Shown piece after piece: positions 19,270-36,604 of a DNA stretch of 64,000 nucleotides. The number at the start of each line of letters is the position of its first letter. Positions within the stretch are counted from its first letter, which is position 1. Origin of the DNA: Thiomonas sp. FB-6 (lineage in GTDB: Bacteria > Pseudomonadota > Gammaproteobacteria > Burkholderiales > Burkholderiaceae_C); the NCBI RefSeq assembly GCF_000377645.1, contig NZ_KB898486.1, positions 1-64,000 of the forward strand. Reading direction: 5' to 3'. The position numbers and the translations under genes were made by a program. The notes below the pieces were generated by a model, which was not told the DNA's origin, did no database searches, and saw only the letters and a list, made by a program, of their open reading frames with translations.

Positions 19270-20811
19270 TCAGAGGAACAGGCGCACCGCGGGGTTGGCG
19301 GTTTCCTCGACGTGCGAGTAGCCCAGTGCGTCGAGGAATTCCGCGAAGCGCTTGCGGTCGGAAGGCGGAACCTGGATGCCCACCAGCACGCGGCCGCTGT
19401 CGCCGCCCTGGTTGCGGTAGTGGAACAGGCTGATGTTCCAGTCGGGCTTGAGCCGGTCCAGAAAGCGCATCAGGGCGCCGGGGCGTTCGGGGAACTCGAA
19501 GCGCAGGATGCGTTCGTGCAGCGGCACCGATTCGTCGGCGTGCGGCGCGCGCCCGCCGGCCAGGTGGCGTACGTGCTGCTTGGCGAGTTCGTCGTCGCTG
19601 AGGTCCAGCGTGGAGAAGCCGGCGCGTTCCAGGTGGCTGGCGATGCGCCGCGCGTCGTCGCGACTGCTGATGGCGATGCCCACGAACACCTGCGCGCGTT
19701 CGGCGTCGCCGAGGCGGTAGTTGAACTCGGTGACCGCGCGCTGGCCGATGAGCTCGCACAACTTGCGGAAACTCCCCGGCTGCTCGGGAATGCTCACCGC
19801 GAACAGGGCCTCGCGGGCCTCGCCGACCTCGGCCCGCTCGGCGACGAAGCGCAGGCGGTCGAAGTTCATGTTGGCGCCGCAGGTGATGGCCACCAGGGTC
19901 TGCGCCTTGAGCTTGTGCTCGGCGGCGTAGGCCTTGAGCGCGGCCACCGCCATCGCCCCCGAGGGTTCGAGCACGCTGCGGGTGTCCTCGAACACGTCCT
20001 TGATGGCCGCGCATACGGCGTCGGTGTCGACCACCACGTAGTCGTCGACCAGTTCGCGGGCGATGCGGAAGGTCTCCTCGCCCACACGCTTGACCGCGGT
20101 GCCGTCGGCGAACAGGCCCACCTCGGCCAGTTCGATGCGGCGCCCGGCGCGCACGCTGCGCAGCATGGCGTCGGAGTCGGGGGTCTGCACCCCGATCACC
20201 CGCACTTCGGGGCGCACCGCCTTGACGTAGGAGGCCACGCCGGAGATGAGTCCGCCGCCGCCGACGGCGCAGAACACGGCGTGGATGGGGCCCGGATGCT
20301 GGCGCAGCACTTCCATGCCGATGGTGCCCTGGCCGGCGATCACGTCGGGGTCGTCGAACGGGTGCACGAAACTCAGTCCGCGCTCGGTCTGCAGTTGGGC
20401 GGCGTGCGCGGCTGCGTCGCTGTAGCTCTCGCCCTCCAGCACGATCTCCACCGAGCCGGCGCCGAAGGAACGCACCGCGTCGATCTTCACCTTCGGGGTG
20501 GTCGAGGGCATCACGATCACGGCGCGGCAGCCCAGCTTGCGCGCGGCCAGCGCGACGCCCTGCGCGTGGTTGCCGGCGGAGGCGCAGATCACGCCGCGCT
20601 TGCGCTCGTCCTCGCTCAGGCGCGACATCTTGTTGTAGGCGCCGCGCAGCTTGAAGCTGAACACCGGTTGCTGGTCCTCGCGCTTGAGCAGCACGGTGTT
20701 GTGCAGGCGCCGGCTGAGGTTGTGGGCCGGGTCCAGCGGCGTCTCGTGCGCGACGTCGTAGACGTTCGCGGTCAGGATGCGCTGGAGGTAGTCGATGGGC
20801 TTGCGGGTCAC
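19270..20811 (-). CDS. ilvA: Threonine ammonia-lyase, biosynthetic
   Basis: Pyridoxal-phosphate enzyme converting threonine to 2-oxobutanoate, the first committed step of isoleucine synthesis. The PLP lysine is in FSFKLRGAY near residue 54, the glycine loop is VGGGGLISG in mid-protein, and two C-terminal ACT-like domains give feedback control. The GTG at 20809-20811 is preferred, giving 513 residues, close to the E. coli enzyme length. A longer frame would run through an intrinsic terminator at 20882-20911. No strong Shine-Dalgarno is seen. Confidence 0.93.
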   Translation of the reverse strand: MTRKPIDYLQRILTANVYDVAHETPLDPAHNLSRRLHNTVLLKREDQQPVFSFKLRGAYNKMSRLSEDERKRGVICASAGNHAQGVALAARKLGCRAVIVMPSTTPKVKIDAVRSFGAGSVEIVLEGESYSDAAAHAAQLQTERGLSFVHPFDDPDVIAGQGTIGMEVLRQHPGPIHAVFCAVGGGGLISGVASYVKAVRPEVRVIGVQTPDSDAMLRSVRAGRRIELAEVGLFADGTAVKRVGEETFRIARELVDDYVVVDTDAVCAAIKDVFEDTRSVLEPSGAMAVAALKAYAAEHKLKAQTLVAITCGANMNFDRLRFVAERAEVGEAREALFAVSIPEQPGSFRKLCELIGQRAVTEFNYRLGDAERAQVFVGIAISSRDDARRIASHLERAGFSTLDLSDDELAKQHVRHLAGGRAPHADESVPLHERILRFEFPERPGALMRFLDRLKPDWNISLFHYRNQGGDSGRVLVGIQVPPSDRKRFAEFLDALGYSHVEETANPAVRLFL

Positions 20812-20881
20812 GTGGGGGGCCTGGGCGGGCAAAGACCCCAGTTTATCCAAGGCCGCACGCCGGTCCCCGCGCGCGCGGGAC

Positions 20882-20911
20882 AAAAAAAACCCAGGCTTGG
20901 GGCCTGGGTTT
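20882..20911 (-). terminator. Intrinsic terminator of the candidate sRNA, upstream of ilvA
   Basis: The minus strand has a 7-bp GC-rich stem (CCCAGGC/GCCTGGG) with a 5-base loop, extended by three A-T pairs and followed by eight T residues. This is a textbook intrinsic terminator. It lies 70 bases before the ilvA start, so it ends transcription before ilvA rather than after it. Confidence 0.85.
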
Positions 20912-20971
20912 GAATCCACCTATGGAGGAGGGTGGAGGAGACAAGAGGCGTCGACCAGACATCGTCGACAT
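20882..20971 (-). ncRNA. Candidate small RNA with anti-Shine-Dalgarno loop
   Basis: A roughly 90-base transcript is predicted between a good promoter and a strong terminator. It would fold into three hairpins. The first is 5' GTCGAC/GTCGAC with an 8-base loop. The second is TCCACC/GGTGGA with the loop CTCCTCCATA. The third is the terminator. Two CTCCTCC copies, complementary to ribosome-binding sites, are single-stranded or in the loop, a design known from trans-acting proteobacterial sRNAs. No protein frame fits. The alternative is an attenuator in the ilvA leader. Confidence 0.6.
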
Positions 20972-20977
20972 GCATTC

Positions 20978-21006
20978 ATCTTAGGACAAACCCGAGGTTT
21001 TGGCAA
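20978..21006 (-). promoter_or_regulatory. Sigma-70 promoter of the candidate sRNA
   Basis: On the minus strand TTGCCA (21001-21006) and TAAGAT (20978-20983) are separated by exactly 17 bases. An imperfect dyad with arms CCCGAG and CTCGGG (20991-21017) spans the -35 box and could be an operator. A 12-bp palindrome, GCATTCGAATGC, lies at 21037-21048, about 70 bases upstream of the predicted start. Confidence 0.6.
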
Positions 21007-21194
21007 AACCCCTCGGGCTCTGAGGTTAAATTCCGTGCATTCGAATGCGCTGATGTACGGCCTGGGTTGCGCGCTCTCCCGGGTGGGGGCTGCAAAGGCG
21101 GCGCGGCGCTGTTGCGGGTACGCAACTGCACGCGGGCGCCTGACGCACAATAGGGCCTGGAGGCCGCGACCGCGCGGCATGGGAGAGCCAAGGA

Positions 21195-21641
21195 ATGGAA
21201 TGCACGGTGCGCTGGACCAAGCCGCTGGATGGTGAGGGCATGGCCTTCGTCGCCACCACCGGCAGCGGGCACATGATCACCATGGACGGGGCCCCGGCTT
21301 CGCGCGAGGGCGAGCCGGGCGGGCATGACCTGGCGCCGCGCCCGATGGAAACGGTGCTGGCCGGAACCGGCGGATGCACGGCCTACGACGTGGTCTACAT
21401 CCTGCGCAAGGGCCGTCAGGACGTGCGGGACTGCAGCGTCCAGCTGCGCGCGGAGCGCGCGGACAGCGACCCGAAGGTGTTCACCGCGATCCACATGCAC
21501 TTCGTGGTCAGCGGGCGCGGGCTGGACCCGGCCAAGGTGGAGCGCGCCATCGTGCTGTCCCACGAGAAGTACTGTTCGGCCAGCGCCATGCTGGCGAGGA
21601 CCGCGGCCATCACCACCAGTTTCGAGATCGTCGAGGGCTGA
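21195..21641 (+). CDS. OsmC-like family protein
   Basis: A 148-residue OsmC/YhfA-type protein, a family of thiol-dependent hydroperoxide-detoxifying proteins. The two family cysteines are Cys61 in GTGGCTAYD and the one in HEKYCSASAML near residue 127. The conserved PMETVLAG segment precedes the first. Start ATG 21195 is preceded closely by AAGG. It is convergent with coq7. Its substrate cannot be told from sequence; the YhfA branch is of unknown role. Confidence 0.88.
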   Translation: MECTVRWTKPLDGEGMAFVATTGSGHMITMDGAPASREGEPGGHDLAPRPMETVLAGTGGCTAYDVVYILRKGRQDVRDCSVQLRAERADSDPKVFTAIHMHFVVSGRGLDPAKVERAIVLSHEKYCSASAMLARTAAITTSFEIVEG

Positions 21642-21680
21642 GCCCCGCTGGGGCGGGGGAGCGGCCCGCGCGCGGGCCGC

Positions 21681-22394
21681 TCAGATCCAGTGCGCGGTGC
21701 CGGTCATGACCCGCGCCGCCGCGCGCATGCCCCAGCGCACCGGAGCGGGCAGCGGCACGCCGCCGAGTTTTTCCGCGGCCGTCGCATGGGCCACCTCGTC
21801 GCCGCGCATCTGCTCGACCACGGCGCGCGAGGCCAGGTCCGCCTGCGGCAGGAGTTGCAGGTGCGAGGCCAGGTGCTGCTCGACCTGGTTCTCGGTCTCG
21901 ACCACGAAACCCAGGCTGAGCTTCTCTCCGAACGTGCCGGCCACCATGCCCAGGCCCAGGGCTCCGGCGTACCACAGCGGGTCCAGCAGGCTGGGCCGGG
22001 AATCGAGTTCGCGCAGGCGTTCGCGGCACCAGGCCAGGTGGTCGCATTCGTCGCGCGCGGCCTGCGTGAAATGCGCGTGCAGCGCGGGGTCGCGCGCCAC
22101 CAGGGCCTGGCCCTGGTATAGCGCCTGCGCGCAGATCTCGCCCACGTGATTGACCCGCATCAGGCGCCCGGAGAGTTCGCGCTCCGCGTCTTCCAGCGCG
22201 CGGGGGCCGGCGCCCCGCGGAGCCTCGGGCGTCGGCCGCGATGCATGCAGGCCTCCGGCCAGGGTCTTCAGGGCGTTGTCGGCCAGAGCCAGCAGGCGGT
22301 CCTGCAGCGAAGCGCGGGCGCGGGTGTCGGAGCCCGGGCGCGGAAAACGGGTGGTCATGGCGTGCGTGGAAACCTGGGAATCGGACGACTTCAT
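21681..22394 (-). CDS. coq7: Ubiquinone hydroxylase Coq7 (DMQ monooxygenase)
   Basis: Di-iron enzyme hydroxylating 2-polyprenyl-3-methyl-6-methoxy-1,4-benzoquinone, a late step of ubiquinone synthesis that replaces UbiF in many beta- and gammaproteobacteria. The two ExxH-type ligand sets are seen in MRVNHVGEICAQALYQ and DECDHLAWC in the first half, and in VETENQVEQHL and GDEVAHA in the second. The 237-residue form starts at the ATG 22392-22394 with AGGGA upstream. An ATG 12 codons on (22358) gives a length closer to homologues. Confidence 0.93.
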   Translation of the reverse strand: MKSSDSQVSTHAMTTRFPRPGSDTRARASLQDRLLALADNALKTLAGGLHASRPTPEAPRGAGPRALEDAERELSGRLMRVNHVGEICAQALYQGQALVARDPALHAHFTQAARDECDHLAWCRERLRELDSRPSLLDPLWYAGALGLGMVAGTFGEKLSLGFVVETENQVEQHLASHLQLLPQADLASRAVVEQMRGDEVAHATAAEKLGGVPLPAPVRWGMRAAARVMTGTAHWI

Positions 22395-35269: not shown

Positions 35270-36604
35270 ATGGCTCAATCAGGTTCGGACGGGCTGCAAG
35301 CCCAGCGGGAACCTGGGTTCTTCGGCAACCGATGGACCCAGTTGGTATTGGCGATTCTTTGCATGGGCCTCGTGGCCAACCTGCAGTACGCGTGGACTCT
35401 GTTCGTCACGCCGATGCATCTGAAGCACCAGTGGAGCGTGGCCGACATCCAGGTGGCCTTCTCCATCTTCGTGCTGACCGAGACCTGGCTGGTTCCGCTG
35501 GAAGGCTGGCTCGTCGACCGCTTCGGCCCGCAGCCGGTGGTGTCCTTCGGCGCCGTGTGCGTGGGCCTGGCCTGGGTGCTGGACTCCTACGCCAATTCCC
35601 TGTCGACCCTGTACTTCGCCGCGGTGGTCGCCGGCCTGGGCGTGGGCTGCGTGTACGGCACCAGTGTCGGCATGGCCCTGAAGTGGTTTCCGGATCGCCG
35701 CGGCCTGGCCGCGGGCCTGGCGGCCGCGGGCTTCGGTGCCGGTGCCGCGGTGACCGTGGTGCCCATCGCCCACATGATCCACGCCAACGGCTACGAGCAT
35801 GCCTTCTTCTTCTTCGGCATCCTGCAGGGCGCGGCCATCCTCGTGCTGTCGCTGATGATGCTGCGCCCCCGTCCGCCCGTGGGCTTCGCGCTGCCGAAGG
35901 CCGCGGTGGCCGCCAAGCGCGATTCCACGCCGGGCCAGATGGTGCGCACCCCCGTGTTCTGGCTCATGTACCTGTGCTTCGTCGCGGTGGCCGCCGGCGG
36001 GCTGATCACGACCGCCCAGATCGGGCCCATCGCGCATCAGTTCAACCTGGCCAAGATGCCCATGACCCTGTTCGGGCTGACGCTGCCGCTGCTGACCATG
36101 ACCCTGACCATCGACAACCTGGCCAACGGCTTCACGCGTCCGCTCACCGGCTTCATCTCCGACAGGCTCGGGCGCGAGAACACCATGCTGGTGATCTTCT
36201 GCGGGGAAGGCGTGGCCATGCTCGGGCTGCGCGCCTTCGGGCACAACCCGGTGGCCTTCATGATCTTCGCGCCGCTGATCTTCCTGTGCTGGGGCGAGAT
36301 CTTCTCGATCTTCCCGGCGCTGTGCGGGGACACCTTTGGTTCGAAGTACGCCACCACCAATGCCGGTGTGCTCTACACCGCGAAGGGCACGGGTTCCCTG
36401 CTGGTGCCGCTGGCCAGCGTGCTGGCCGCCACCGCGGGATGGGGCTCGGTGTTCGGCGTGGCTGCCGTGGCCTCCATCGCCGCCGGGCTGCTGGCCCGCT
36501 TCGTGCTGGCGCCGATGCGGCGTCAGTGGGTGTTGGAGCAGGCGGCGATCAGCGCCAAGTCGGCCGGTTTCGAGGACCTGCAGGTGCAGGCCTCCGGCAA
36601 GTAG
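35270..36604 (+). CDS. MFS oxalate:formate antiporter
   Basis: A 444-residue, 12-helix major facilitator of the OxlT (oxalate:formate exchange) family. The start is ATG 35270 (MAQSGSDGLQAQREPGF) with AGGAGACAAGG in front; an ATG eight codons earlier lacks spacing. Family features are NLQYAWTLFV in helix 1, DRFGPQPVV in the first cytoplasmic loop, and the FISDRLGRENTM loop in the C-terminal half. It imports oxalate and exports formate, completing the pathway encoded upstream. Confidence 0.92.
   Translation: MAQSGSDGLQAQREPGFFGNRWTQLVLAILCMGLVANLQYAWTLFVTPMHLKHQWSVADIQVAFSIFVLTETWLVPLEGWLVDRFGPQPVVSFGAVCVGLAWVLDSYANSLSTLYFAAVVAGLGVGCVYGTSVGMALKWFPDRRGLAAGLAAAGFGAGAAVTVVPIAHMIHANGYEHAFFFFGILQGAAILVLSLMMLRPRPPVGFALPKAAVAAKRDSTPGQMVRTPVFWLMYLCFVAVAAGGLITTAQIGPIAHQFNLAKMPMTLFGLTLPLLTMTLTIDNLANGFTRPLTGFISDRLGRENTMLVIFCGEGVAMLGLRAFGHNPVAFMIFAPLIFLCWGEIFSIFPALCGDTFGSKYATTNAGVLYTAKGTGSLLVPLASVLAATAGWGSVFGVAAVASIAAGLLARFVLAPMRRQWVLEQAAISAKSAGFEDLQVQASGK

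Follow-up and report, generated by a model that had tools for sequence, protein, structure and literature searches.

The window, that is, the whole 64,000-nucleotide stretch of Thiomonas sp. FB-6 DNA that was analysed, carries on its minus strand a predicted sRNA gene of about 92-93 nt (20880..20972, with the 5′ end placed from the −10 box). Downstream on the same strand lies ilvA, which encodes threonine dehydratase from a GTG start (19270..20811; Pfam PALP and Thr_dehydrat_C), and upstream are a divergent osmC-like gene on the plus strand (21195..21641; Pfam OsmC) and coq7 on the minus strand (21681..22394; Pfam COQ7). Ahead of the RNA, a promoter-like site can be recognized on the minus strand, made up of a −35-like TTGCCA (21006-21001; TTTGCC or TTTGCG in most of the near subclade), a 17-base spacer and a −10-like TAAGAT (20983-20978; TAAGAT, TAACAT, TAATAT or TAGGAT in near relatives). 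With 9 of 12 consensus positions matched it is a middling promoter, and it is the sole such site in the interval 20000-22000 (shuffled sequences gave 0.0, s.d. 0.1).

The predicted 93-nt RNA folds into three hairpins with an energy of −35 kcal/mol (z −4.53), and none of 200 shuffled sequences was equally stable. The first, a 5′ hairpin formed by GTCGAC/GTCGAC (20950..20969, minus strand), varies in sequence. It is followed by site 1, TGTCTCCTCC (20934..20943, minus strand), which is the complement of GGAGGAGACA, has a single-stranded 5′ part and contains the first copy of CTCCTCC (20940-20934). The second copy (site 2, 20930-20924) forms the loop of the middle hairpin TCCACC/GGTGGA (20915..20936, minus strand; 20936-20931 paired with 20920-20915). 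The third hairpin is an intrinsic terminator (20882..20911, minus strand) with a stem of 10 pairs at 20911-20887 and a run of eight T at 20889-20882. The original prediction had called this promoter, the three-hairpin fold, the terminator and both CTCCTCC copies, all of which were borne out here. It had also pointed to a dyad overlapping the −35 element. This dyad is present as CCCGAGG/CCTCGGG (21017-21011 with 20997-20991), but among 27 aligned loci of the genus CCCGAG lies upstream of CTCGGG in just one. Since that one is the window's own genome, the dyad is probably not a conserved operator, and this candidate was dropped.

An Rfam scan of the window assigned 20881-20943 (minus strand) to RF02278, the Betaproteobacteria toxic sRNA family, with a covariance-model score of 66.6 bits against a gathering score of 50. 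The expected family features are all there: UGUCUCCUCC at the 5′ side, a hairpin with a CU-rich loop, and a second hairpin that is an intrinsic terminator with a U tail. Judged by its sequence, the window RNA is therefore the Thiomonas-group member of an already named family. The kind of sRNA had been read correctly beforehand, but it had been missed that the family is a named one, for which transcripts and some functional data have been published from Burkholderia and Bordetella. The word 'toxic' in its name is said to come from Kimelman et al. 2012. In the same window, anti-hemB (RF02837, 28.5 vs 49.5 bits) and SorX (16.1 vs 46.6) did not reach their cut-offs, and the scan reported neither PrrF nor mmgR at E ≤ 1.

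The window's copy is the single RF02278 match in its own genome. When 60 relatives were searched, 50 matched at E ≤ 0.001 and 42 scored above the cut-off, with a match in all 27 other genomes of the genus and in 14 of 24 genomes of the order outside the family. A 26-base core is matched exactly in 23 stretches of the public collection, including Leptothrix, Sphaerotilus and Methylibium. One Burkholderiales genome (G042, loci L042-L048) has nine matches to the RNA family, one of which (L045) sits at the osmC/rplM place. Four genomes of the genus (L060, L062, L064 and L067) carry a second, weaker RF02278-like candidate of 30-33 bits with TGTCTCCTCCAG, and these candidates have their upstream region in common; no such second candidate was found in the window's own genome.

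Conservation was followed in an alignment of 27 genus loci, from which G018 (two cut contigs) was left out. Identity, averaged over blocks of 10 bases, is 0.92-1.00 across 20943-20904, falls to 0.78 in the terminator loop (20903-20894) and returns to 0.95 at the start of the T run (20893-20884), as compared with 0.12-0.66 in the flanking spacer (21193-21014) and 0.61-0.85 in the promoter part. The comparison with the spacer that had been proposed as a check thus favours the RNA, and in relatives the 5′ site, the CU-rich loop and the terminator are all conserved. The full CTCCTCC loop occurs in 22 of 29 genus copies (CCCTCCT in the other 7), and GTCTCCTC is invariant in the Burkholderiales alignment, whose 36 rows were selected without the weak matches.

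The proposed covariance check likewise turned out positive, since the three-hairpin fold shows compensatory changes. It was made with 22 pairs in 26 rows, 25 from the genus and one from another genus. In the 5′ hairpin, 4 of 6 pairs are changed on both sides, so that pairing is kept despite differing sequence. For the 22 pairs together, changes on both sides were counted in 30 cells, as against 9.1 in shuffled alignments (0 of 500 with as many) and 4 to 14 when the structure was slid along the alignment. The covariation value is 0.163 versus 0.106 in shuffles (0 of 500 as high); because these shuffles ignore relatedness, the covariation is strong, yet the figures are not to be read as a probability. 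The six pairs of TCCACC/GGTGGA are all kept, gaps aside, and being without variation they are uninformative in these rows; across Burkholderiales this middle stem does vary (for example TCCAA/TTTGGA in G042) with the fold retained.

The gene neighbourhood differs between lineages. The gene downstream of the RNA is ilvA in 28 of 28 genomes of the genus and in all 13 other family genomes with a matching locus that were examined; in two additional genomes of the family, model R1 found no match. Wherever the contig reaches far enough, in the genus and in the rest of the family, osmC lies upstream (1.6 kb off in G026). Outside the family, 7 of the 14 matching order genomes contain a copy that is preceded by osmC and followed by rplM-rpsI (L027, L029, L031, L045, L050, L055 and L056). 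The latter genes also follow the RNA in 4 of the 6 additional order genomes that R1 recovered (L200, L204, L205 and L206); L195 and L207 are without this arrangement, and at the remaining copies in the order none of the five marker genes is arranged as described. In the window's own genome, rplM lies on another contig, away from the RNA. Thus the RNA stays while its downstream gene changes between families, from ilvA within this one to rplM outside it.

We have also searched 274 genomes of the class with RF02278 at E ≤ 0.001. Matches were found in 83, including the window's own genome and two others from its family; the other 80, which lie outside the order, all scored below the gathering score. 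In 30 of 38 of these that were inspected (mostly the better-scoring ones; L094-L133 without L114 and L115), rplM lies downstream on the same strand at a distance of 90-348 bases, the exceptions being L102, L105, L112, L118, L125, L126, L128 and L130. Moreover, coq7 or osmC is upstream in 11 of the 38, tRNA-Gln(CTG) is within the fetched stretch in 25, and many share the core ACTCCTCCATCCTCCTTTGGTGG. Two loci, L103 and L118, have two copies apiece. The rplM-linked copies were aligned as 30 rows from 29 loci (L103 contributing two copies, and L097 dropped as near-identical to L096), again without the weak matches. In this alignment each of the 8 terminator-stem pairs shows changes on both sides, and 97.3% of the cells of the first stem are paired. 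A model built from these gammaproteobacterial rows alone, all outside the order, recovers the window locus at 48.4 bits and matches 39 of 299 sampled genomes of the phylum. At the look-alike places of the 20 loci scanned, no Rfam family rose above its gathering score.

Low scores call for care. Of 10 loci with R1 scores of 36.7 bits or less that were scanned against Rfam, 8 proved to be other sRNAs (5 PrrF, 2 mmgR and 1 SorX) and 2 belonged to no family. Because such weak hits are largely other sRNAs, low R1 scores need context to be trusted, and weak hits without rplM or the core sequence were excluded from the homologue counts. The same caution is due to RF02278 hits near 30 bits such as L112. 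At that locus (G322, a gammaproteobacterium, about 2001-2359) three weak matches (TGTCTCCCCCC...) stand in tandem with a spacing of about 150 bases, perhaps representing another RNA. The words rplM and gammaproteobacteria are absent from the available text of PMC11722255 and PMC5688073, and no RNA of the RF02278 kind at rplM was found in the open-access literature. The sub-threshold homologues directly upstream of rplM outside the order, as predicted here, were therefore not found in the searchable literature and are apparently new. Their matching place beside ribosomal-protein genes suggests that the family goes back further and extends more widely than its name implies.

Such an arrangement could also mean that, in the rplM-type lineages, the element serves the L13/S9 operon as an autoregulatory leader and that the Thiomonas copy is a relic left after rplM moved away. 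The downstream rplM on the same strand, seen in the 30 gammaproteobacterial loci as well as in 11 from Burkholderiales outside the family, would fit this, as would the structured autoregulatory 5′ leader described for E. coli rplM (PMC10931766). Nevertheless, a terminator stands between the RNA and rplM, and a promoter-like site occurs in that interval in 7 of the 11 Burkholderiales loci (upstream of the RNA, the same scan gave such a site in just 3 of 11). The corresponding gammaproteobacterial counts are 14 of 30 between RNA and rplM and 21 of 30 upstream of the RNA, both without a chance control. Paralogues exist away from rplM, and a core identity of 0.92-1.00 is hardly expected of a relic. 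We thus regard an L13/S9 leader as unlikely.

Even less likely is a transcription attenuator in the ilvA leader, in which the hairpins and terminator would act as a sensor for a metabolite, charged tRNA or protein, with read-through giving the ilvA mRNA. The shared strand, the terminator about 70 bases ahead of the ilvA start and the constant presence of ilvA next to the RNA within the family are what speak for it. A leader would imply an ilvA without a promoter of its own and an element always tied to ilvA. Between the terminator and ilvA, however, there is a −10-like box (TAAACT at 20840..20845, minus strand, in the window) in 27 of 27 aligned genus loci, as TANAAT in 20 and as TAAACT in 7, the latter form having been added once the alignment had been seen; and in other families rplM follows the same RNA. 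The attenuator is further opposed by paralogues elsewhere, such as the nine copies in G042, by the most conserved part being largely unpaired and complementary to Shine-Dalgarno sequences, and by the Burkholderia homologues, described as separate short transcripts in PMC4603805 and PMC5688073. A functionless chance terminator with CU-rich sequence is scarcely credible in view of the conservation, covariation and synteny.

The claim that the element would be a free-standing, trans-acting anti-Shine-Dalgarno sRNA rather than an ilvA leader is thus supported at the sequence level by the RF02278 match, the conservation, the compensatory changes, the −10-like box before ilvA and the rplM found downstream elsewhere. 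In our joint explanation, 20972-20880 (minus strand) very likely encodes a free-standing RF02278 sRNA of about 92 nt with its own promoter-like site and terminator, which would block Shine-Dalgarno regions and damp uptake. The promoter-like site and the intrinsic terminator would give a transcript of about 92 nt. If it behaves like ncS27 and S17, this transcript may undergo processing upstream of UGUCUCC. The single-stranded UGUCUCC(UCC) (UGUCUCCUCC) and the CUCCUCC loop would then pair with GGAG(GAG)ACA Shine-Dalgarno regions right before start codons. From the conservation and the published work on relatives, such pairing would be expected to block ribosome entry, and the RNA would probably damp nutrient uptake and carbon use when cell growth slows.

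Candidate targets were sought through complementarity. The pattern GGAGGAGACA occurs 8 times in the window's own genome and its reversed pattern not at all. One site is the complement within the sRNA gene itself, two are identical copies without a long ORF, and five are at the starts of genes, namely those of an MFS carrier, two Peripla_BP_6 proteins, a FadL-type protein and a weak DsrE-like match. Within the window, GGAGGAGACA with at most one mismatch is no more frequent than chance (4 vs 2.93); an MFS-family gene at 35270, with the start context AGGAGACAAGGTCATG, is a predicted target there. The shorter GGAGACA lies 2-7 bases ahead of ATG at 63 places in the genome, as against 4 for its reverse. 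Among the first 30 of these places, an ORF of at least 80 residues begins at 28, and 16 of these 28 encode uptake proteins by Pfam and our own sorting.

For control starts, uptake proteins were found at 1 of 20 scanned with GGAGCCA (an 86-aa ORF, L276, was left unscanned) and at 1 of 17 with GGAGCAC, giving a Fisher p of 1.8e-4 for the uptake enrichment against the first control and 7.8e-6 against both. Counting an ABC ATPase (L277) as uptake makes the GGAGCCA control 2 of 20 and p 9.7e-4. GGAGCAC is a poor control because its matches are mostly inside genes, and both control patterns include false starts (55 vs 27 reversed and 44 vs 13). GGAGACA may also be just what uptake genes of this lineage usually have at their starts, and for these reasons the target enrichment is suggestive only. 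For the most part, the predicted targets encode solute-binding proteins, MFS carriers, porins and enzymes of carbon catabolism. A damping effect of the RNA on nutrient uptake and carbon use is thus probable, and the enrichment at uptake-gene starts fits such a brake, though in a suggestive way only.

A possible regulatory input was seen upstream of the RNA. The palindrome YTKNTGCRNYGCANMAR is that used for PhaR in Ralstonia eutropha, according to PMC12849132. When at least 12 of its 14 defined positions were required within 110 bases upstream, with 300 permutations of the motif as a control, PhaR-like motifs were found in 13 of 28 genus loci (permuted mean 0.29, largest 7), 7 of 10 other family loci (0.09, largest 2) and 6 of 7 rplM-type Burkholderiales loci (0.06, largest 1). 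The counts at other Burkholderiales copies (2 of 9) and at gammaproteobacterial sites (3 of 42) are also reached by permuted motifs (2 and 3). In each of the 13 genus loci with the motif, the palindrome is centred at −55 to −59 relative to the RNA core, as against −11 to −102 elsewhere. Because this position is constant in the genus loci and scattered elsewhere, the operator reading is best for the genus. Genus loci with the palindrome over the promoter (for example GTTTTGCAACGCAGCAG) are L007, L010, L013, L020-L023, L026, L028, L034-L036 and L039. The window's subclade has no PhaR-like palindrome, a GGGTTTGTNCTAANAT-like stretch being common there instead, and a PhaR operator in the window's own promoter was rejected, with a best match of just 8 of 14 positions.

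A TTGCNNNGCA-type site was also found upstream of 27 of 30 phasin loci (the site at L149 is not PhaR-like; the position is uncertain at four phasin loci because these are cut), and the PhaR gene was found in 51 of 60 genomes, the window's own included. No paper uniting PhaR, sRNA, Burkholderiales and polyhydroxybutyrate was found in the open-access literature. The PhaR-like palindrome predicted at about half of the genus copies and at many family copies was thus not found in the searchable literature and is apparently new. In the available part of PMC5688073 (Table 2), the Burkholderia members ncS03, ncS05 and ncS27 are up 8.0-, 6.9- and 4.3-fold in glucose medium, a rise that the candidate PhaR input could explain.

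Taken together, we find it reasonably likely, from comparative sequence analysis, that RF02278 forms a single branch of an anti-Shine-Dalgarno sRNA gene already present before Burkholderiales and the other Gammaproteobacteria (in the GTDB sense) separated. Its ancestral place would be between coq7/osmC and rplM-rpsI, where many species outside the order would have kept an uncatalogued orthologue. In the Thiomonas family, ilvA would have come to lie where rplM stood while the sRNA stayed, and a PhaR-type palindrome in the promoter region of many Burkholderiales would tie the uptake brake to polyhydroxybutyrate storage. Taken by itself, the window RNA is an ordinary representative of a known family. 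What appears to be new is modest and comparative, namely the locus history, with a likely ancestral locus by the L13/S9 ribosomal operon, the gammaproteobacterial candidate orthologues well beyond Betaproteobacteria, and the candidate PhaR transcriptional input, to which the comparison adds the covarying 5′ hairpin in the genus.

Among known systems, anti-hemB (RF02837), SorX (RF02784), PrrF (RF00444) and mmgR (suhB, RF00519) are sRNAs that also combine a CUCC-containing end part with a terminator, and they surfaced in the searches as weak look-alikes only. Another relevant system is S17 of Bordetella pertussis, described in the available part of PMC11722255 as coq7-adjacent and likened there to RF02278 members, to which its 5′ segment is very similar. 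S17L is about 190 nt and yields S17S through RNase E processing, as compared with the roughly 92 nt predicted for the window RNA, and the higher level of S17 in virulence mode is a Bordetella feature. The same source reports that S17S directly represses one target and that its single-stranded sites find matches in 70 candidate genes, with 32 genes or operons related to transporters. Other RF02278 members stop the growth of E. coli when cloned (PMC4603805), and S17S is not toxic in E. coli (PMC11722255). There is also a close likeness to the double-hairpin RNAs ncS03, ncS05, ncS27 and ncS62 of Burkholderia cenocepacia, which share with the window RNA the covariance model, UGUCUCCUCC, the CU-rich loop and the terminator. 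Published transcripts of the Burkholderia members are about 57-92 nt long, and ncS27, like the window RNA, is about 92 nt with an extra 5′ part, as given in PMC4603805; NcS27 was also studied by Sass et al. 2019, as summarised in PMC10987360. The 5′ hairpin of the window RNA, unlike the core, lies outside the Rfam RF02278 model, and the window's genome has one copy as against the three to five in Burkholderia reported in PMC5688073.
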